A stretch of DNA of 38,017 bases, taken from positions 1-38,017 of the forward strand of contig JADLDC010000268.1 in NCBI GenBank assembly GCA_020846885.1, in the 5' to 3' direction. Below the pieces are notes generated by a model. It was not told the origin of the DNA and did not search any database. It saw nothing but the letters and a program-made list of their open reading frames with translations. This DNA is from Acidobacteriota bacterium (GTDB lineage Bacteria > Acidobacteriota > Blastocatellia > Pyrinomonadales > Pyrinomonadaceae). Within the stretch, counting starts at the first letter, position 1. Each line of letters starts with the position of its first letter. Of the stretch, positions 26,083-38,017 are shown in pieces. A program made the position numbers and the translations under genes.

Positions 26083-26790
26083 CTAGAACGGCGAGCCGAA
26101 CAATATCCGGACAGCACTCGCCTTTCCGATCGCGTCCATTATCTTCGTAATGCTCCATTTCTTTTCGGGTACGATCAACTGGTCGCCCGGCAGCAGATAG
26201 GGCACCTCGCTTTCTCCTTTTGAGATCTCGCTCAGGTCAATGATAGTTCGTGCAAAGGAGCCATCGCGGGTCATGCGCAATAGGACCACTCGTTTTGAAT
26301 CTCCTCCGCTTGCCACGCCGCCTGCCTCGGCGATCGCTTCATAAACACTATAGCGCCGGTTCATCAACTTAACACCGGGAGCTGCGACCTTGCCGAGGAC
26401 GCCAAAACGCGCCGACCCCACCTTGTCCAAAGTCACCGTCACCTGCGGATCGATTATGTATTCGTCAAGCCGCTTTTTCAGTTCGGCGGCAACCTGGTCA
26501 GTGGTCTTTCCTCCGACGAAAACGCCGCCGGAAATAAGCGGGTACGCGATCCGCGCCGTCGGCGGGATCACGATGCCGGTCTTCGAATAATTTGGCTCGC
26601 CAAAGACATCGACCGTGATCACGTCCTCGGGGCCTAGATGATATTGGCGCAAATAGTTGTTGTAGTACGGCAGCAGTTCAGCCTCTTCGTCAGAAACGGG
26701 CTTAGGGGGCTGGGCCATGGCAGCAACGGCAAAAAGGGCCGCGACCGCCGCGGCGGCCATCCAATGTGAGATCAGGGTTTTGTACTTCAT
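26083..26790 (-). CDS. Polysaccharide export protein (Wza-like, Poly_export plus SLBB)
   Basis: About 235 residues with a signal peptide (MKYKTLISHWMAAAAVAALF...AMAQ). The polysaccharide export domain follows (YHLGPEDVITVDVFGEPNYS, then AYPLISGGVFVGGKTTDQVA). After it comes a soluble-ligand-binding beta-grasp segment (GVLGKVAAPGVKLMNRRYSV) ending LLPGDQLIVPEKKW. It would form or gate the outer-membrane exit for the EPS. No lipobox cysteine is visible, unlike E. coli Wza, so it is probably not a lipoprotein. ATG at 26790 is preceded by AGGAG; an in-frame GTG at 26802 is an alternative. Confidence 0.9.
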   Translation of the reverse strand: MKYKTLISHWMAAAAVAALFAVAAMAQPPKPVSDEEAELLPYYNNYLRQYHLGPEDVITVDVFGEPNYSKTGIVIPPTARIAYPLISGGVFVGGKTTDQVAAELKKRLDEYIIDPQVTVTLDKVGSARFGVLGKVAAPGVKLMNRRYSVYEAIAEAGGVASGGDSKRVVLLRMTRDGSFARTIIDLSEISKGESEVPYLLPGDQLIVPEKKWSITKIMDAIGKASAVRILFGSPF

Positions 26791-26804
26791 CGGATACTTC
26801 ACTC

Positions 26805-28211
26805 CTAACGGCCTCCCTTTCCAAAGAGGACCGTTTTTACCGTCTCAAAAATGATGATCGCATCCAGGGCCAGTGATTGGTTCTTTATATAATAAAGGTC
26901 GTATTGAAGCTTTTCCCTGGCATCTTCGACCGACGCTCCATACGGATATTTTATCTGGGCCCAACCGGTCAGGCCTGGAGCAACGAGGTGTCTGTGGCCA
27001 TAGAACGGTATTTGCTCGGTCAATTCAGCGACAAAATGCGGGCGTTCCGGGCGCGGGCCGATGAAGCTCATCTCTCCTTTCAAAATATTCCAAAATTGCG
27101 GTATCTCGTCGATCCGCACCTTTCGGATGAGCCTTCCGAACCTTGTTATCCTATCATCGTCCGACGACGCCCAAACCGGCATTCCGTCTGCTTCGGCATC
27201 TTGATACATCGATCGGAACTTCATCAACTCAAAAACAATGCCGTCCCTGCCAACGCGCTGCTGCTTGTAAAACACTGGGCCCGCTGATTCGAGCTTTATG
27301 ATGATCGCGGTAAGTATCGCGATCGGAAAAGAAAGTACGACCCCGATCAGTGCAAGCGACCGGTTGACGATCTCGCGTATGACAACAATAAGTTTTGTAT
27401 CCCGCTCGCGACCCGAAAAGATCAGCCATGACGGCCGAAGCATATCAAGGTGTACCTGCCCTGTAACGCGTTCGTAGAAGGATGCGCTTTCCTCGATGTC
27501 CACGCTGTTTTCCAGGCTCATTCTGAGCAGTGATTCCGTCGGAAAATTTCCGCGCCTCTGCGCAAGGGCCACGACGATCCGATCGATCTTACGCTCGGCA
27601 ACGATCTTTTCTAACTGGTCGGAGTTGCCTAAGATCGCAGCTTCGCCAAGCTCGGCCCGCGACCGCGGCGAATCGCCGTTCTCAACCCCCGGCACAGCAA
27701 CAAATCCCGCGATACGATAGCCTGCATCCCGCCGAGTATAGACAATATTAGCTGTCGCGACGGCCGCTTTGCCGGCGCCAAGTATCAGGACCTTCTCGCC
27801 GAGATCTGGATGCCCCGTAAGATAGTGAATGCAGGTCCGCCAAACCAGCAGCAGAACGAGGGTCAAGACAACGGAATAGATCAGCGTGCCGCGCCCGATC
27901 ATCAACGGGGGGACAAGATAGTAGAGGATCGCAAGGATGGTCCAGGCAATGCCAGTCACCTGCACAAGGCGAAACAATAGTTCTCGCCGATTGTGCATAA
28001 CGCCGTAATCGTATAGGTCGTAGAGGTAGATCGTGACAAGGCAAACCACGACCGCAAGTGTGACCTTACTGAGGGCTCCATTCTCGATGATCTGATAGGC
28101 GGTACCCTCCCAACCCAGGCGCAGATAGAGCGCAAGCATGATCGCGATAAAAACTATCGCGACATCGGCCGCTATCAGGCCGGCCGTGCGTGGGCTGAAT
28201 TTGGTACTCAT
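26805..28211 (-). CDS. Undecaprenyl-phosphate glycosylphosphotransferase (priming enzyme)
   Basis: A 468-residue polyprenyl glycosylphosphotransferase that loads the first sugar-1-phosphate onto undecaprenyl phosphate at the inner membrane. It has four N-terminal membrane segments, then a CoA-binding-like Rossmann domain (GEKVLILGAGKAAVATANIV), then a membrane segment and the catalytic sugar transferase domain. The latter has QQRVGRDGIVFELMKFRSM, RKVRIDEIPQFWNILKGEMS and FIGPRPERP. The architecture matches the PEP-CTERM-associated sugar transferase subfamily. It sits between the kinase and the Wza-like gene, 13 bases after the kinase stop. Confidence 0.93.
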   Translation of the reverse strand: MSTKFSPRTAGLIAADVAIVFIAIMLALYLRLGWEGTAYQIIENGALSKVTLAVVVCLVTIYLYDLYDYGVMHNRRELLFRLVQVTGIAWTILAILYYLVPPLMIGRGTLIYSVVLTLVLLLVWRTCIHYLTGHPDLGEKVLILGAGKAAVATANIVYTRRDAGYRIAGFVAVPGVENGDSPRSRAELGEAAILGNSDQLEKIVAERKIDRIVVALAQRRGNFPTESLLRMSLENSVDIEESASFYERVTGQVHLDMLRPSWLIFSGRERDTKLIVVIREIVNRSLALIGVVLSFPIAILTAIIIKLESAGPVFYKQQRVGRDGIVFELMKFRSMYQDAEADGMPVWASSDDDRITRFGRLIRKVRIDEIPQFWNILKGEMSFIGPRPERPHFVAELTEQIPFYGHRHLVAPGLTGWAQIKYPYGASVEDAREKLQYDLYYIKNQSLALDAIIIFETVKTVLFGKGGR

Positions 28212-28224
28212 CGCTAACTACAGC

Positions 28225-29199
28225 TCAGGCCCTTACAGGCTCATTCCGATCGTACAAGCCATATTTATAATAGCTTTCGTCCATCAATGGGACTTCCGAC
28301 TGGTTCAGTATGGTTCCCAGCATCCGCTCTCGGGGTAATGAATCGAGGACCCTGTCAACGTCTTTATACTTCGTATGGTCCGCACGAATGACCAGCAGAG
28401 CTCCGTCCGTCTGGTTTATCAGCAGCGACGCATCAGTAAATATTCCTAGCGGTGGTGCATCAATAATTACAAAATCAAAATATTCCCGTGCCTCTTTCAA
28501 TATCTCCGAGAAACGCGGGCCCGAGATCAACTCCGCCACATCGCTGCGTGGTTCGCCGCCCGGCAAAAGATACAGGCCTGCCGGCTGGAGATGTACGATC
28601 GATCCCATCAAAGAGGCTTTGTCCGACAATACTTCGGATAGCCCAGACCGAGCTTCGATCCCTAAATAGGCCGCAAGGCTCGGTCTGCGAAGGTCGCTGT
28701 CGATCATCAGCACACGCGTGCCGTCTGCCTGGGCAAACAGCCACGAAAGGTTCGCCGCCGTGACCGATTTTCCTTCCGTTGGGCCAACGCTTGCGATAAC
28801 AATGGCCTGTAGTTTTCGCTTCCTGCTCCTGTGGAGGATCTGAGTCCTTAAATTTCTATATTCTTCACAGTACGGCGATCTCGGCTCTGTGATCGAAACA
28901 AGCCGCGGATTCACTTTCTCAATGTTGACGAAGAAGCTTTGGACCTGCGGAAGTTCGTCGAGTTCTCGGGGTTCAAGCGGTACGAGCGTTTGCGGGCGGC
29001 TGGCGTTCGCTTCCGGTGGCAGCCTGTCCTTTGCTCCATTCTCGGCCCTTGGTGCGCCGATCCTAAGGTCGGGCGCGAAAAGTGATCCCGCCGGCACATT
29101 ATCCGCCAATGCGTCGACGCTCGTCTCGACATCGAGTATGTCTTCCCGTTCGGCCGGAAACTCGCTTTCGTACTTCTGTATCGTTTTTAGAAATTTCAT
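28225..29199 (-). CDS. BY-type tyrosine autokinase (CpsD/Wzc C-domain, exosortase-associated)
   Basis: A 324-residue cytoplasmic P-loop kinase. Walker A is SVGPTEGKS at 137-145, Walker A' is VLMIDSDLRRP at 163-173, and Walker B is FVIIDAPP at 243-250. A C-terminal tyrosine cluster (YYKYGLYDR) supplies the autophosphorylation sites. An N-terminal acidic, poorly conserved region of about 90 residues precedes EEYRNLRTQI, the oligomerisation motif. It partners with the separately encoded Wzz-like protein to control polymer length, as in Gram-positive and PEP-CTERM systems rather than fused Wzc. ATG at 29199 follows a GGGGG ribosome binding site. Confidence 0.93.
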   Translation of the reverse strand: MKFLKTIQKYESEFPAEREDILDVETSVDALADNVPAGSLFAPDLRIGAPRAENGAKDRLPPEANASRPQTLVPLEPRELDELPQVQSFFVNIEKVNPRLVSITEPRSPYCEEYRNLRTQILHRSRKRKLQAIVIASVGPTEGKSVTAANLSWLFAQADGTRVLMIDSDLRRPSLAAYLGIEARSGLSEVLSDKASLMGSIVHLQPAGLYLLPGGEPRSDVAELISGPRFSEILKEAREYFDFVIIDAPPLGIFTDASLLINQTDGALLVIRADHTKYKDVDRVLDSLPRERMLGTILNQSEVPLMDESYYKYGLYDRNEPVRA

Positions 29200-29243
29200 C
29201 ACTAACCCCCAATCCTCGTCCTACGGGAGTCACCACTGCATTC

Positions 29244-30170
29244 TCATTTCGCCCCAACGCGGCTGCGGTCCAAAAGGAGTTCATCGTGGCCAACCGGCGT
29301 CAGCACCCTGGCCGAACGGACCGCCTCTACGGGCCGGTCGCTTGGAATCACGCTGTCGCGGTCCGGAAGCAGGTCAAGATTCTCTGCAACGCTCTCGACA
29401 ACTTTGCGGCTGATCATTGGGTCACCAGCCGCGTAGGCCGCGATCATCGAATTATCGCAAAGATTATTTATAAGCCTTGGAATTCCTTCCGAACATTGAA
29501 AAATATAATCGATCGCGTATGGCGAAAACACATTCGGCTGCGGCGAACCGGCAATGAACAGGCGTTCGGTAATGTAGCGCTTCACCTCATTGACACTTTC
29601 AAGAGCCGGCATTACACAGCGTAAGGCGATCCGCTGCTTCAACTGGCGAAGGCTCGGCCTTCGAAGGGTTTCAGTCAACTCCGGCTGCCCGGTAAGGATT
29701 ATTTGAAGATGTTTAGCGTTGTCCGACTCCAGGTTGAGCAGCAGCCGTATTTCCTCAAGGACCTCGTCCGGCAGTTCGTGAGCTTCGTCAACGATAAGGA
29801 CCGTACGCAGCCCGCGGCGATGGCGGTCTTCAAGCAGCCGCGCCATTTCACTCAAAAGTTCGGTCTTGTTCGACCATTCAGTTATCCCGAGCATTTCCGC
29901 AACATGGTGATAAAATTCTTCAATGGAAAGATGCGGATTCACGATGTATGCGGCAAGCACACTCGAATCAAGCCTTCGGATGATCCACCGCAATGCCGTC
30001 GATTTTCCAGTGCCGACCTCGCCCGTCAACACGATCAAGCCCTTTGCCATTTCTATCCCGTAATACAAACTCGCTAAAAGCTCGTTGTAGCTCGGGGTAA
30101 AAACAATGAACTTAGGGTCCGGCGTTAGACCGAACGGATACTCATTCAGATTGAAAAACTCTTTGTACAT
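29244..30170 (-). CDS. ExeA-like AAA ATPase of PEP-CTERM loci
   Basis: A 308-residue ATPase beginning MYKEFFNLNEYPFGLTPDPK, a hallmark of ExeA/GspA-like ATPases. Walker A is GEVGTGKST at 50-58 and Walker B is VLIVDEAHEL at 124-133; LTGQPELTETLRRPSLRQLK is the sensor region. A subfamily of these ATPases is found consistently in exosortase EPS clusters, where its precise job is not known. The C-terminal tail after residue 265 is low in conservation. It lies between the Wzz-like and kinase genes in the same orientation. Confidence 0.92.
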   Translation of the reverse strand: MYKEFFNLNEYPFGLTPDPKFIVFTPSYNELLASLYYGIEMAKGLIVLTGEVGTGKSTALRWIIRRLDSSVLAAYIVNPHLSIEEFYHHVAEMLGITEWSNKTELLSEMARLLEDRHRRGLRTVLIVDEAHELPDEVLEEIRLLLNLESDNAKHLQIILTGQPELTETLRRPSLRQLKQRIALRCVMPALESVNEVKRYITERLFIAGSPQPNVFSPYAIDYIFQCSEGIPRLINNLCDNSMIAAYAAGDPMISRKVVESVAENLDLLPDRDSVIPSDRPVEAVRSARVLTPVGHDELLLDRSRVGAK

Positions 30171-30212: not shown

Positions 30213-31871
30213 TTAACTGAACCTCTCAATAATTCGCGACACATGGAGGACCATGACCAGCACCGGAATGCTAAGTACGGCCGCGACAAATCCTCCGGCG
30301 ACCTTTAATAGATGCGATCTGTAATTTGCGGTTATCTCTTTTTCGGAAAGCAGGTCCGGCACAGCCGCAAGTACCGGGAGGCCCGTGTAGTGCTTCGCAT
30401 CCTCGATACTTTGGACAGTGAAAATCTTCGGTATTTCGAGCGCCGCGGCAAACAGAAGGCCAAGCCCAAGGCCGGCCAACGCGCCAAAGGCGATGAACAG
30501 CGGCCGCTTGGATGCATTTTCAGGTGTCGCGGGCAGATTGGCCGGGTCGACCACCCGGATAGATTCGCCCTGCGCATTTGTCTCACGCTCGACCTGCTGC
30601 TGCGCGTTGTTAAACTTCTTCTGCAGCTCGTCATACGCCGATTTTGCTAGATCAAGCTGGTTGGTGATCCCTTCAAGCGCGACCCGAACGTTCGGGATCG
30701 AATTGATCTTTGTCTCGAGCAGAGCGATCTGCCCAGCGTTCTGTGTCAGGTCAAGGTCTTTCGCCTGAAGCTGCTGTTCGATCTGCGCGATCTGGCCTTC
30801 GGCCTTTGTTTTGTCAATTTCAAGGCTTTGCTTCTGCAACTCAGCCTTTCGGCTGCCTGCCTGATTCGCCTGCTTCACGCGGATATCGGTATTCTTTGCA
30901 AGTTTTTCAAGTTCCTCGTTGATCTTGCCTATCTCAGCCTCTGCCTGGATAACTTCCGGATGCTTTTCGCGATATTGCTTCCTCAGCCGTTCCAGCCTCG
31001 CACCGGTCTCGGCCCGTTTTTTTACGAGTTCCGCGTATGCCGGGGTATCTTCGATCCGCGCCGCCTGCTGGACAGCGGCCTTGGTCTCATTCTCTCCAAA
31101 ATTCTCGATCAGCCGCATCTGGCTGTTCATCGCGCGAATACTTTCCTGGATCCTGCCCCGCTCGTTCAGCAATGATTCTTTGTCCTTTGAGATCGTCGCC
31201 TCGCGCGTGCGCAAGCCCTCAAGCTGGGCGATCAGTCCCTGGGCTGACTCGGGCAAGGTCTCAACGTTGTTGGCCATGATGTCGAGCCTTTGCTTTTCAA
31301 TTGCGTCAAGATTCGTCTTTGCCTGTGAAAGCTGATTATTGATGAACTCCCGCGTGGTCTCCGCACTCCGCTTCGACTCGACCGACTGGGCCGTCACATA
31401 TTCTTTCGCAAGCTCCGCCGTAACGTTCCGCGCCTTTTCCGGCGAAGGATCGCGAAAGCTGATGCGAAATCCGACCACCTTTTCGTTATCCGCCTTTTCC
31501 GGCACAACCGCGACGTTGTCGCGCATCTTGTCAACGATGCGCTCCACCGGAACGCCGGCCGCTCGATCGTCAGCGTAAAGATCGAACTTCTGCAGCATCG
31601 GTTCCAGGGCCGTACGGCTGAGAACGGATTGATTGATCGCCTGCAGCCGGTTTGACAGGTCATCGTCTGTCAGCGACGGAGCTACCTTTTCAGAAATGGC
31701 AGGCGGCGTCAGTGTCAGGAACGAAGTTGACACGTATGTGCTCGGAAGCCCGCGGACAACCCAGAATACGGACACAAAAACAGCGAGGGCCGGAAACAGA
31801 ATATGCCACTTCCGCTTCTTTGCCATCCGCAGATATTCCACAGCGGTCCTTTGTCGAAACTCCACACCCAT
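30213..31871 (-). CDS. Wzz/GumC-like chain-length determinant of exosortase EPS systems
   Basis: About 552 residues. A Wzz domain starts after the first membrane segment (WHILFPALAVFVSVFWVVRG). A long periplasmic coiled coil, rich in Glu/Gln/Lys, spans roughly residues 150 to 430. A second membrane segment (PLFIAFGALAGLGLGLLFAA) is followed by a short cytoplasmic stretch and a further hydrophobic C-terminal segment. It regulates polymer length together with the BY-kinase. The start is placed at ATG 31871 (MGVEFRQRTAVEYLRM); the longer open frame to 31964 has residues unlike any Wzz N-terminus. Confidence 0.9.
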   Translation of the reverse strand: MGVEFRQRTAVEYLRMAKKRKWHILFPALAVFVSVFWVVRGLPSTYVSTSFLTLTPPAISEKVAPSLTDDDLSNRLQAINQSVLSRTALEPMLQKFDLYADDRAAGVPVERIVDKMRDNVAVVPEKADNEKVVGFRISFRDPSPEKARNVTAELAKEYVTAQSVESKRSAETTREFINNQLSQAKTNLDAIEKQRLDIMANNVETLPESAQGLIAQLEGLRTREATISKDKESLLNERGRIQESIRAMNSQMRLIENFGENETKAAVQQAARIEDTPAYAELVKKRAETGARLERLRKQYREKHPEVIQAEAEIGKINEELEKLAKNTDIRVKQANQAGSRKAELQKQSLEIDKTKAEGQIAQIEQQLQAKDLDLTQNAGQIALLETKINSIPNVRVALEGITNQLDLAKSAYDELQKKFNNAQQQVERETNAQGESIRVVDPANLPATPENASKRPLFIAFGALAGLGLGLLFAAALEIPKIFTVQSIEDAKHYTGLPVLAAVPDLLSEKEITANYRSHLLKVAGGFVAAVLSIPVLVMVLHVSRIIERFS

Positions 31872-31943
31872 AAACACTTTCGTCACGCAACGCGCTTTGC
31901 CGTACTGGTCGATTTCAATATAAGTTAGTACGAAAGCATACAA

Positions 31944-31957
31944 ATTTCTAGAGAAAT
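31944..31957. promoter_or_regulatory. Short palindrome upstream of the Wzz-like gene
   Basis: ATTTCT-AG-AGAAAT is a perfect six-base inverted repeat in the gap of about 100 bases between the exosortase stop and the Wzz-like start. On the minus strand it is followed by TTTGTA and, 16 bases on, TATATT, a weak sigma-70-like pair. This could be an internal promoter and operator, but the evidence is only the pattern. Confidence 0.25.
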
Positions 31958-31972
31958 CGCTCAAACATCCAT

Positions 31973-33580
31973 TTAATCCGGCAAAAAACCAGCCAGGTCG
32001 TCCCCAAGATGCCCTGTTAGGTCAATGGCGGCGGCCAAAGACCGCTGAGGGTCTTTGCCGAGGGGCGTCATAACCCGAACGAGGCCTCCGTCTGATCTCC
32101 GCCGGACAACGCTATCTATCGCCGTATAGAACTTGTCCTCGTATTCGCTGACAGAAGTACGCCCGCGGCCCTGATACCAATAGATCAGATATTCCTGATG
32201 CTCGCCTCGATTAACGACATACAGATTTGTGTCAAAACGCCGGCCATTCGGGGTCGTGATCGTCAGGAGCTGCGGCTCGGTCATTTCCCAGCCGGTTCCG
32301 GGCAGGCAGTTGAGCGGACTGTGGTACGTTGAACCGCCACGCTGCGAGGCGTAAAATCCGACATAGATATTCAATCGTTTGCCGGGGCCGTAGTAATCAC
32401 GCATCACGTAATCAGTAGCCCGCAAAACCCGTTCGCTTTCAGCATCGAACCGGATGTCAGGATTTCGCTGCTCCCACGTCCCAAGCCTCGCCGGTATCTC
32501 GGCCAAGGGCCGCCGGCCGACCGGCACCTCGCCCCGATATTGGAGCCAGTTGACGAAACCGCCGCAAATGGCCAGCAAAAGCAAGATCGCCCAGGCCCGC
32601 TTGACCGGAACAATACGGCCCGGTCCAATTGCCTCGGAAGGAATATCGCCGCCACCCGGTCCAGCCCCTTCGCAGCTAAGGATGCGCGCTATAAGAAAGT
32701 TCAGGCCAAGCAATAGTGCGAGCGCTGAGAAAAAGACCGCTGAGCCAGAGAGATCATGCCAAACACCTTCGACGGCATCTTGCCCGTACAAATACGCAAT
32801 AGCGCCAGTGATAAGGACGCGCGCCGCGTTCGTTATAAGGGCAACAGGCACTGACATTGCCATCAACAGAACCGTCCGCTGAACATCCCTAGCAAAGAAA
32901 AGTTCCTTGAAGCCATTCGTTAACGAATCCCGGCGGTCCCGCGTAAAGTAACCGAGAATCAGCGCGAGCGTGATCAGGGTGACCAGCGACCTGATCCCGC
33001 TGCATGCCTCGACAACCTCCAGGCTAACGATCTCACCGGTCGCCCGAACTGGTATCTCTATGACATTACCCATTCTTACGGCGGAAATTCCAATGATATG
33101 CAAGCCTGATTCGGCCATTCTGGACGCAAGCATTTGCAGCGGCAGGGCGATCTTGTTAAATAGGATCTGAGGTATCGGGACCGCAAGAATGAGGAGGAGA
33201 AGCGGTATTGAAAGTTGCCTGATCATTCCGGCCCCAAAGAGACCAATGATCATTCCGACGATCATGAAAAGCAGCGACAACCGCTGGGCGTAAAGGATTG
33301 ACGCGAGTGTGCCTGCCACAAGCAGGAGCAAGGCGATCGAGCCAAATACCCATCCTACCGAACTCCAACTACCGTTAACGGCGCTCTTCAACGAATCGAA
33401 TCGCTGCCAGACGATAAAGCCAATAACGAATGGGACAAGCAGGCCGTGGGAGTAGTTATCATCGGTCCACCAATCAACGCCGAGTTTCCACAAAACGGTA
33501 GAATACATGAACACGACCGCAGCCCCGACCAACGATGTCATCCATGCCTGGCGAGTCAGATCATGTGAGCTATTTCGCAT
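31973..33580 (-). CDS. Exosortase with C-terminal EpsI domain (XrtA-like)
   Basis: A 535-residue membrane transpeptidase-like enzyme that recognises PEP-CTERM tails. About eight membrane segments hold the catalytic residues: Cys193 in VVEACSGIRSL, Arg254 in NAARVLITGAIAYL and His275 in GVWHDLSGS. From about residue 325 there is an EpsI (DUF3485) domain, with NIYVGFYASQRGGSTYHSPL and CLPGTGWEM. Fusion of exosortase and EpsI is known for the XrtA type that accompanies EPS loci. The start at ATG 33580 is chosen because the longer frame to 33631 crosses a hairpin. The only PEP-CTERM gene in view lies directly upstream. Confidence 0.93.
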   Translation of the reverse strand: MRNSSHDLTRQAWMTSLVGAAVVFMYSTVLWKLGVDWWTDDNYSHGLLVPFVIGFIVWQRFDSLKSAVNGSWSSVGWVFGSIALLLLVAGTLASILYAQRLSLLFMIVGMIIGLFGAGMIRQLSIPLLLLILAVPIPQILFNKIALPLQMLASRMAESGLHIIGISAVRMGNVIEIPVRATGEIVSLEVVEACSGIRSLVTLITLALILGYFTRDRRDSLTNGFKELFFARDVQRTVLLMAMSVPVALITNAARVLITGAIAYLYGQDAVEGVWHDLSGSAVFFSALALLLGLNFLIARILSCEGAGPGGGDIPSEAIGPGRIVPVKRAWAILLLLAICGGFVNWLQYRGEVPVGRRPLAEIPARLGTWEQRNPDIRFDAESERVLRATDYVMRDYYGPGKRLNIYVGFYASQRGGSTYHSPLNCLPGTGWEMTEPQLLTITTPNGRRFDTNLYVVNRGEHQEYLIYWYQGRGRTSVSEYEDKFYTAIDSVVRRRSDGGLVRVMTPLGKDPQRSLAAAIDLTGHLGDDLAGFLPD

Positions 33581-33602: not shown

Positions 33603-33640
33603 CAAGCCGCAATGTCACTCGAAAGCAACAATACGGCTTG
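33603..33640 (-). terminator. Terminator-like hairpin between PEP-CTERM gene and exosortase gene
   Basis: On the minus strand CAAGCCGTATTG and CATTGCGGCTTG pair at 11 of 12 positions (one G-U) around a 14-base loop, and TTTTACTG follows directly. This resembles an intrinsic terminator or attenuator just after the PEP-CTERM gene. It would let that small gene be transcribed at a higher level than the exosortase and genes downstream. Confidence 0.55.
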
Positions 33641-33678: not shown

Positions 33679-33942
33679 CTATTCCGAGCGGCGAAGGCGT
33701 CTCCGTGCCGCAAATCCGACACCGGCGAGGCCCGCGCTGAACAGAATTATCGATATCGGCTCCGGTGTCGGCACGCCGCCGCAATCCCCGGTAGTACGTT
33801 CCTCGTTCGCGGAACGGTCATAATCGCAGCCATGCCTTGGTTTACGTTCTGGCCCGTCACCTGCATTTACCACGGTCGCGACGCCGCCGAAAATGGAAAC
33901 AGTAAGACACAAGGCCAAAACAAGTTCAGTTATCTTCTTCAT
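33679..33942 (-). CDS. Small PEP-CTERM sorting-domain protein
   Basis: An 87-residue exported protein with a signal peptide (MKKITELVLALCLTVSIFGG, probable cleavage after residue 27, VNA/GDG). A short hydrophilic core follows, then the PEP-CTERM tail: PEP at 60-62, a hydrophobic helix and a terminal Arg cluster (ARRRLRRSE). After both cleavages only about 33 residues would remain, rich in charged residues and containing Cys39 and Cys54. It lies directly upstream of the exosortase, its expected processing enzyme. A good Shine-Dalgarno (GAGGGG) precedes the ATG. It has no recognisable domain beyond the sorting tail. Confidence 0.93.
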   Translation of the reverse strand: MKKITELVLALCLTVSIFGGVATVVNAGDGPERKPRHGCDYDRSANEERTTGDCGGVPTPEPISIILFSAGLAGVGFAARRRLRRSE

Positions 33943-34266
33943 GAATTCCCCTCTGGATCGATGATCCTCTCACACACAGGCAATGACTCCTATATTCCAG
34001 GCTGTTGCTCCTGAAAAGCCGATACGAACCAAAGCATCGCCTGCTCAAACTCATACATGCGCTCCCAAAAGCCAACGCCGGAATCGGCGCTTAAACAGCT
34101 AATACTTCGGAAGGACTTAGAGCGAACGTAACTATGATAAGGCCGTATCGTCCCATTTTTCTGTATGATGGATTACACTATACGACAATTTTTGTCACAT
34201 TTTCAGGGAACCGCGCCAGACAATAAGGAGTATTATTAATACCTATCGACTTGGAAAGGAGGAAAA
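33943..34266. other. Divergent intergenic region upstream of the core EPS operon
   Basis: A 324-base spacer without a gene between the PEP-CTERM start (minus) and the small membrane protein (plus). It must contain the promoter of the core EPS run. I see the ribosome binding sites at both ends and a short inverted repeat, GACAA-TTT-TTGTC, at 34184-34196. No sigma-54 site with both conserved dinucleotides and no convincing sigma-70 pair was found. Confidence 0.5.
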
Positions 34267-34542
34267 ATGGACTTCTATTTCTTGCTGTTTTCGCTCTTCT
34301 TCCCGCGAATAGTGCTGGTGGTATATCTACTTTGGAACATGTATCCCGCGAATTCTGTCCCGCAATGGGCTGACATACTGCTCGGGGTCTGTTCCCCGCG
34401 GGTATTGATCCTTATATACATATATCAAGCTATGGGCTATGAGAATATTTGGTTCGCCGCGCATTTGATCGCCGCGATCCTTGCTTATACCGGCGGCGGG
34501 CGGGAAACGTTCCGTAGGCGGCGCAGGGCCGCTGACGTTTGA
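34267..34542 (+). CDS. Small hypothetical membrane protein
   Basis: A 91-residue protein with three hydrophobic segments (FYFLLFSLFFPRIVLVVYLL, then ILLGVCSPRVLILIYIY, then NIWFAAHLIAAILAY) and a basic C-terminus (GRETFRRRRRAADV). An excellent Shine-Dalgarno (AAAGGAGG) stands five bases before the ATG, which is the main reason to believe in it. I do not recognise the family with certainty. It is divergent from the PEP-CTERM gene and may be independent of the EPS pathway. Confidence 0.65.
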   Translation: MDFYFLLFSLFFPRIVLVVYLLWNMYPANSVPQWADILLGVCSPRVLILIYIYQAMGYENIWFAAHLIAAILAYTGGGRETFRRRRRAADV

Positions 34543-34648
34543 TCCGAAACTTATATAGGCGTCACCAACTCGGATTAAGTATACCCTTCCCTCCGGATCA
34601 GCTTAGTTCAGTGTTTTCTTGGACTTAGTGTAGTCTGGATTACAGAGG

Positions 34649-37373: not shown

Positions 37374-37412
37374 AGTTGCCCAACGTTGAGTGACCTGCCC
37401 TTACTTCGTGCG
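37355..37412. repeat. Inverted repeat between convergent genes
   Basis: The 16-base word CGCACGAAGTAAGGGC in the second tandem copy recurs inverted at 37397-37412 (GCCCTTACTTCGTGCG), giving a perfect 16-bp stem with a loop of about 26 bases. No T-run follows, so it is not a classical intrinsic terminator, but it could stop or protect transcripts from both convergent genes. The inverted copy overlaps the 3' end of the regulator gene. Confidence 0.75.
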
Positions 37413-38017
37413 TGCCTCTGCATCAATACCCAAATTCCGCATCCGGCGGTAAAGGTGGCTACGGTCAACGCCCATATTTTCGGCGGCCTTGCTAACGTTG
37501 CCGTCGAATTCTGCAAGCTTGTGGAGGATGAACTCGCGCTGATATGCGTCGGTTGCCTCGCGAAAAGTTGGGAAGCGGAATGTCGAAGCAGGCCGCTCGC
37601 CGGTTGAGCCGAGTTTTGGCAGATCGTCAGCGTTGACAGTCTGACCGCTATGAGTGATGACAATCCGTTCGATCGTGTTTTTCAACTCGCGCACGTTTCC
37701 GAGCCAGACGTGGTCACGCAAGGCATCGATCGCATCTTTACTAAATGACTTCGGTTTCTTTGCGTAATTCGTCGAAAATCTGAGGTTGAAGTGTTCAATA
37801 AGTTGAGGAACGTCCTCGGACCGTTCGCGCAGCGGCGGTACTTGAAAAGGAATAACGTTCAGCCTGTAAAACAGATCGTGCCGGAAATTGCCGTTGTCGA
37901 TCAACGCATCGAGCGGCTTGTTTGTGGCTGAGATCACACGGACATCGACCTTTATCGCCGTATTGCTGCCCACGGGTTCAAACCGCTGTTCTTCCAGAAC
38001 ACGCAGCATCTTTGCCT
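37401..38017 (-). CDS. Sigma-54-dependent transcriptional regulator (NtrC type), C-terminal part
   Basis: The frame is open to the right window edge, so the N-terminus is missing; about 205 residues are visible. They cover the end of the sigma-54-activating AAA+ domain (VISATNKPLDALI, DLFYRLNVIPFQVPPLRERS, GNVRELKNTIERIV) and a Fis-type helix-turn-helix (DGNVSKAAENMGVDRSHLYR). The GAFTGA loop and any receiver domain lie outside. It probably activates sigma-54 promoters. Exosortase EPS loci often carry such a regulator (PrsR), but the identity cannot be settled from this part. Its stop codon lies inside a repeat element. Confidence 0.92.
   Translation of the reverse strand, partial: AKMLRVLEEQRFEPVGSNTAIKVDVRVISATNKPLDALIDNGNFRHDLFYRLNVIPFQVPPLRERSEDVPQLIEHFNLRFSTNYAKKPKSFSKDAIDALRDHVWLGNVRELKNTIERIVITHSGQTVNADDLPKLGSTGERPASTFRFPTFREATDAYQREFILHKLAEFDGNVSKAAENMGVDRSHLYRRMRNLGIDAEARTK

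Follow-up and report, generated by a model that had tools for sequence, protein, structure and literature searches.

The window, by which we mean the whole 38,017-nucleotide stretch of DNA analysed here, carries a gene for an 87-residue PEP-CTERM protein that is probably (at roughly 60%) a substrate dedicated to the neighbouring exosortase, and probably its sole one, with a role in attaching or assembling EPS. This reading rests on the absence of any further PEP-CTERM match from its genome, the adjacency of the two genes in relatives, the mutual exclusion with a different, longer target, the absence of amino-acid replacements in the mature part (dN = 0), the conserved cysteines and the intact catalytic residues of the enzyme. 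The linkage to EPS genes fits the published PEP-CTERM/EpsH model (PMC1569441) and counts in its favour. A dedicated partnership had been proposed from the sequence alone, and it is now supported by the sole match, the adjacency in relatives, two cysteines in 13 of 13 short proteins and the absence of the long target. A limited literature search returned no description of such an arrangement.

The short gene and its parts are as follows.
33679-33942, minus strand: whole coding sequence of the 87-residue PEP-CTERM protein, above the curated cut-off of PF07589
33862-33942, minus strand: signal peptide, residues 1-27, predicted cleavage VNA/GDG, from the sequence and an AF2 helix at residues 2-26
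33766-33861, minus strand: hydrophilic mature core, residues 28-59 (32 residues), dN = 0 against G005
33826-33828 and 33781-33783, minus strand: the core cysteines Cys39 and Cys54, respectively
33682-33765, minus strand: sorting tail, made up of PEP at residues 60-62, a transmembrane helix and the basic cluster RRRLRR; PF07589 match at residues 58-82, AF2 helix at residues 62-85

The translation reads MKKITELVLALCLTVSIFGGVATVVNA / GDGPERKPRHGCDYDRSANEERTTGDCGGVPT / PEP / ISIILFSAGLAGVGFAARRRLRRSE, with cysteines at position 12, within the signal, and at positions 39 and 54. Judged from the sequence, the N-terminus has the n, h and c regions of a signal peptide followed by VNA/G. The tail scores 25.5 bits against PF07589 (cut-off 20.7) and 21.4 bits against TIGR02595 (cut-off 16), while all NCBIfam whole-protein PEP-CTERM families score far below their cut-offs, so that the tail alone matches. 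With these scores and dN = 0, the very small PEP-CTERM substrate described in the sequence-only reading, with its signal, Cys39, Cys54 and PEP at 60-62, is borne out. Its figure of about 33 residues for the mature chain becomes 32 residues between signal and PEP or 35 if PEP is included, depending on the cut. The AF2 model consists of two helices (2-26 and 62-85) and a disordered core with pLDDT below 50 across residues 28-56, and thus offers no confident core structure. A lipoprotein anchored via Cys12 was considered and rejected, as LALC is not a lipobox and the residue is Ser in G005.

Comparison with G005, the nearest relative, shows that the gene is real. The two short genes differ in 40 codons, 37 of them silently; the three replacements all lie within the signal peptide, and the 60 residues from 28 to 87 have no amino-acid change. 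Synonymous sites are near saturation (dS ∼1.1), and dN = 0 at this distance, together with the profile score, excludes a chance open reading frame. Protein identity between the same two genomes is 75-79% for the exosortase, 91% for the chain-length protein and 97% for the ATPase, so the mature part of the short protein, identical in core and tail, is the most conserved product of the operon in this pair. The short protein is under strong purifying selection.

The gene heads an EPS operon, whose other members are encoded downstream of it.
31973-33580, minus strand: exosortase fused to EpsI, 535 residues from ATG 33580 (TIGR02602, TIGR02914, PF09721, PF11984)
30213-31964, minus strand: chain-length determinant, TIGR03007-like, below that cut-off
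29244-30170, minus strand: XrtA-system-like ATPase, TIGR03015-like, below that cut-off
28225-29202, minus strand: tyrosine autokinase, TIGR01007 above cut-off
26805-28211, minus strand: sugar-phosphate transferase, TIGR03013 above cut-off
26083-26802, minus strand: polysaccharide export protein, TIGR03027/03028-like

A YCF48-like protein and an amidotransferase also belong to the operon, on the same strand as the short gene. The exosortase-EpsI fusion scores 148.8 against TIGR02602 (cut-off 105.55) and 106.4 against TIGR02914 (cut-off 42.8). Its mechanical open reading frame begins at TTG 33631, earlier than the supported start; ATG 33580 is probably the true one, because the TTG lies inside a conserved hairpin (described below) and the frame of the extension contains a stop in G005. 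Measured from this ATG, the short gene is separated from the exosortase by about 98 nt, and the earlier description of it as encoded directly before the exosortase stands. The catalytic residues Cys210, Arg271 and His292 (552-residue numbering) are present in 36 of 36 exosortase sequences, and the enzyme at 31973-33580, in the same genome as the short protein, has them intact.

No second PEP-CTERM protein above cut-off was found in the window genome, which is 79% complete, so that further targets may be missing from the assembly. Among 41 genomes of the genus, 26 have a PEP-CTERM match above cut-off, nearly always exactly one. The EPS cluster is present in 33 of the 41, and the target co-inherited with it is of two kinds. 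A distal protein of ∼200 residues occurs in 19 of these 33 genomes, and in 13 the short two-cysteine protein stands at the operon head in its place. The two are never found together (0/33), and the long one is present in 19 of the 20 EPS-cluster genomes that lack the short one; it was not found in the window genome. The long target carries AGPVRFDQVVQ... and a CDC motif, together with Thr-Pro repeats, a PVPEP tail and, inside the protein, a second stretch of hydrophobic residues, FPKWALLGLAAIP; an example of this family, the sole target in most long-target genomes, lies at L111 7548-8186. Long-target genomes also encode a large TPR-like lipoprotein (PrsT-like by look) between the exosortase and the chain-length gene, as at L105 9246-11612 (plus strand) and L116 10838-13294 (plus strand), which is missing at that spot in short-target genomes.

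Seven of the 13 short proteins have an intact PEP tail, namely those of the A-type genomes G000, G005, G006, G017 and G024 and the B-type genomes G030 and G039. In six of the seven the gene directly precedes the exosortase; in G017 it is likewise at the head of the operon, on a contig that stops after the hairpin. The expected adjacency to an exosortase in relatives therefore holds in these six genomes and fails in six others, where the chain-length gene directly follows and the operon has no exosortase. In other genera of the family, wherever upstream sequence existed, no short PEP-CTERM gene adjoining the exosortase upstream was found.

In each of the 13 short proteins the core holds exactly two cysteines, separated by 9 to 38 residues; in the window protein, 14 residues separate Cys39 from Cys54. 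Cysteine makes up 0.5% of residues in the proteins of the window, which puts the chance of at least two in such a core at ∼0.01-0.06 per sequence, a figure that supports the cysteines but gives no clean probability, as sequences within a clade are not independent. Of the two kinds of conservation anticipated for homologues, that of both cysteines was thus confirmed, but that of the core did not extend beyond close relatives: the sequence between the cysteines is CD...EERTxGDC-like in four genomes and free elsewhere. G030 and G039 have a longer CH..G...H...C module at the same place, in adjacent targets of 135-136 residues with outer cysteines, and a TTGDCG stretch is common to the G039 target and the window protein. 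These larger neighbours could suggest that the short protein is a vestige of such a target, now an exosortase decoy, which we regard as very improbable, since a vestige would not be expected to evolve with dN = 0 across 60 residues, as seen in the lineage of the window.

In six genomes (G010, G012, G015, G020, G021 and G032), the EPS cluster lacks an exosortase. In five of them, searches with PF09721 and TIGR04178 gave no exosortase or archaeosortase above cut-off anywhere in the genome (completeness of the genomes 92-98%). The exception, G012, encodes an exosortase elsewhere, next to a target of 806 residues (L165 7874-11148, minus strand; the target ends PEPEEYLLFG...), a pair with the look of those of XrtN and VIT-domain proteins. 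In each of the six genomes a gene for a protein of 90-100 residues stands immediately before the chain-length gene (L145, L146, L153, L154, L157, L158). The protein has a hydrophobic stretch at its N-terminus, two cysteines in its core and a tail of PEP-CTERM-like build. The PEP motif itself is decaying: two of the proteins read DPEP, one AEP and three FES, and the tail still follows LxLFGxGLxGFAxxxRR. Pairwise dN/dS among these genes is ∼0.14; they are therefore not pseudogenes and are under purifying selection. Profile matches cover four of the six over their full length (E 1.5e-4 to 8e-7). The shared place, build and profile matches make homology to the window protein likely, short of proof because N-terminal and tail hydrophobicity feed the profile score.

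In the chain-length tree the six form a clade of their own (100/100), and this joins G000, G005, G006 and G024 with G030 and G039 in one larger clade (100/100); the chain-length copy of G017 is partial and was omitted. The exosortase tree unites the A-type and B-type enzymes (93/98). The simplest reading is that the exosortase gene, once situated between the short gene and the chain-length gene, was lost a single time; no exosortase remnants were found in that gap in the exosortase-free clade.

Retention of the short protein without an operon exosortase makes a role that needs no sorting possible, perhaps within the membrane. The protein might then serve mainly as an accessory subunit of the EPS machine in the inner membrane, beside the chain-length protein, with sorting as a secondary or regulatory step (release) that was lost in one lineage. 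The gene has stayed directly upstream of the chain-length gene in the exosortase-free clade, keeping both cysteines and the membrane tail under dN/dS ∼0.14 while PEP decays to AEP or FES, as such a subunit would predict. However, the LxLFGxGLxGFAxxxRR tail remains clearly PEP-CTERM-like, beyond the needs of a plain anchor, PEP is invariant in the five closest exosortase-bearing genomes, and the homology of the exosortase-free proteins is drawn from position, build and modest profile scores. We consider this alternative possible, if unlikely.

Three further elements flank the short gene.
33603-33640, minus strand: intercistronic RNA hairpin CAAGCCGTATTGTTGCTTTCGAGTGACATTGCGGCTTG, 38 nt
34162-34177, minus strand: operator-like palindrome TGTAATCCATCATACA, followed by the short gene at a distance of about 220-235 nt
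34629-34644, minus strand: second operator-like copy TGTAATCCAGACTACA

The hairpin lies in the gap that separates the short gene from the exosortase and is found at the same place in the five A-type genomes and, diverged, in G030. Folding z-scores range from -4.4 to -8.2 in five of the six, and both sides have changed in 5 of 16 pairs, against 0 to 2 in slid controls. At E < 1e-4 across the genus, a model of the hairpin recovers this locus alone, in the six genomes; all six sequences were used to build it and score by construction, so it is the absence of other copies that counts. Rfam gave no match for the hairpin, and with the single-locus matches this led us to reject a dispersed repeat or a known RNA. 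Nor did a terminator scan call it as a standard intrinsic terminator, although T-rich stretches do follow the hairpin. It could serve as an expression-ratio element that yields more substrate than enzyme.

The palindrome pattern TGTAATCCANNNTACA occurs exactly twice in the window, at the two positions listed. A search of the 41 genomes gave 11 exact matches, of which 8 precede A-type short genes, compared with 2 for a reversed control pattern, and G030 has a perfect palindrome in the same frame at -218; the element is near-private to the short-gene locus. The sole off-locus match in an A-type genome, at L187 1501-1516, precedes a gene for an OlsB-like acyltransferase, beside an M3 peptidase; as the acyltransferase gene was not found in most other A-type genomes, we drew no link to it. 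A published PEP-CTERM motif 1 ends in TTTACA (PMC1569441), and its likeness to the palindrome is a lead only. The intergenic region that the short gene shares with a divergent gene (34267-34542, plus strand) holds a conserved GACAAAAATTGTC palindrome; the product of the divergent gene is a membrane protein of 91 residues that belongs to no known family and shares 91% identity with its G005 counterpart. Further upstream, 37401-38015 (minus strand) encodes a fragment of an NtrX-like, also PrsR-like, sigma-54 enhancer-binding regulator. G005, G006 and G017 keep this regulator gene linked to the short-gene locus, in G017 a short way upstream of the short gene, and no convincing sigma-54 (-24/-12) promoter was found downstream of the operator.

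A broader and decidedly tentative reading, which we think unlikely to hold as a whole, takes the private operator, the ∼35-residue two-cysteine substrate, the ratio-setting hairpin and the enzyme as a minimal exosortase unit, whose substrate would work inside the EPS machine as well as after sorting and would have outlived enzyme loss in the sister lineage as a permanent membrane subunit. If true, the core component would be the substrate and not the exosortase.

As the dedicated substrate of its neighbour, the short protein would be exported by Sec and lose its signal, leaving a periplasmic chain of ∼35 residues held in the inner membrane by the PEP-CTERM helix, with Cys39 and Cys54 probably closing a disulfide loop. 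The exosortase cysteine would cut at or near PEP and pass the peptide to an acceptor that the operon itself makes, the nascent EPS or its lipid carrier. There the peptide, as a small cap or link, would attach the polymer to the cell surface or organise it there. The export, anchoring and cleavage steps are modelled on the family as published (PMC1569441). EPS adhesion as the outcome is suggested by analogy with other exosortases, whose loss disturbs EPS adhesion in Nostoc (PMC12188702). The very short two-cysteine chain, strictly conserved between the two closest genomes, would also suit a released signal or antimicrobial peptide with the tail as a merely cleavable membrane anchor, yet the neighbourhood showed neither a dedicated transporter nor an immunity gene or receptor, which makes a free peptide look the least likely of the three roles proposed from the sequence alone, the others being a polymer anchor and a sugar carrier. 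The gene moreover heads an EPS operon, and core length and sequence vary freely among relatives while the EPS linkage is constant; we hold a released peptide to be improbable.

The acceptor of exosortases, and the purpose of the transfer, have been open questions since 2006, and the acceptor is left undefined in two papers of 2006 and 2025 (PMC1569441, PMC12188702). With one enzyme and one detectable substrate of ∼35 residues, the window genome avoids the usual dozens of large targets, and the small size of the substrate makes it a good test case, a modified C terminus being easily within reach of mass spectrometry. In such a one-enzyme-one-substrate genome, mutants of either gene should give the same phenotype, and the sister clade that has the substrate without an operon exosortase is a natural control.

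By every testable feature of its sequence, the short protein is a member of the PEP-CTERM family. It shares with the PEP-CTERM/exosortase system (EpsH; PF07589/TIGR02595 and PF09721/TIGR02602) the signal peptide, PEP, transmembrane helix and basic end, and the locus shares the Cys/Arg/His triad, the EpsI fusion and the surrounding EPS genes. Published genomes have a median of 8 PEP-CTERM targets, and more than 65% of PEP-CTERM genes are single-gene operons (PMC1569441), whereas the window genome has one target, tiny, adjacent and within the operon. The chain-length protein, ATPase, kinase, sugar transferase, export protein and amidotransferase recall the XrtA/EPS cluster (TIGR03007, 03013, 03015, 03018, 03108), but most window members fall under the equivalog cut-offs, the exosortase is not XrtA by score (TIGR03109, 154.6 bits against 208), and the window has no TPR lipoprotein between exosortase and chain-length gene, unlike the long-target genomes. 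The best-scoring subfamily is XrtD, the VPLPA-CTERM exosortase (TIGR04152), also an exosortase-EpsI fusion of ∼490 residues; the window enzyme scores 327.7 bits, short of the 400 that mark the cut-off, and its target has a PTPEP tail in place of VPLPA. XrtN with its VIT-domain target is a dedicated one-enzyme-one-target exosortase whose targets are large proteins; the window pair likewise has one adjacent target per enzyme but leaves only ∼35 residues. What is new is the size of the substrate, the single-target state, the position within the operon, the replacement of a different target within the genus and the retention of the substrate after loss of the enzyme.
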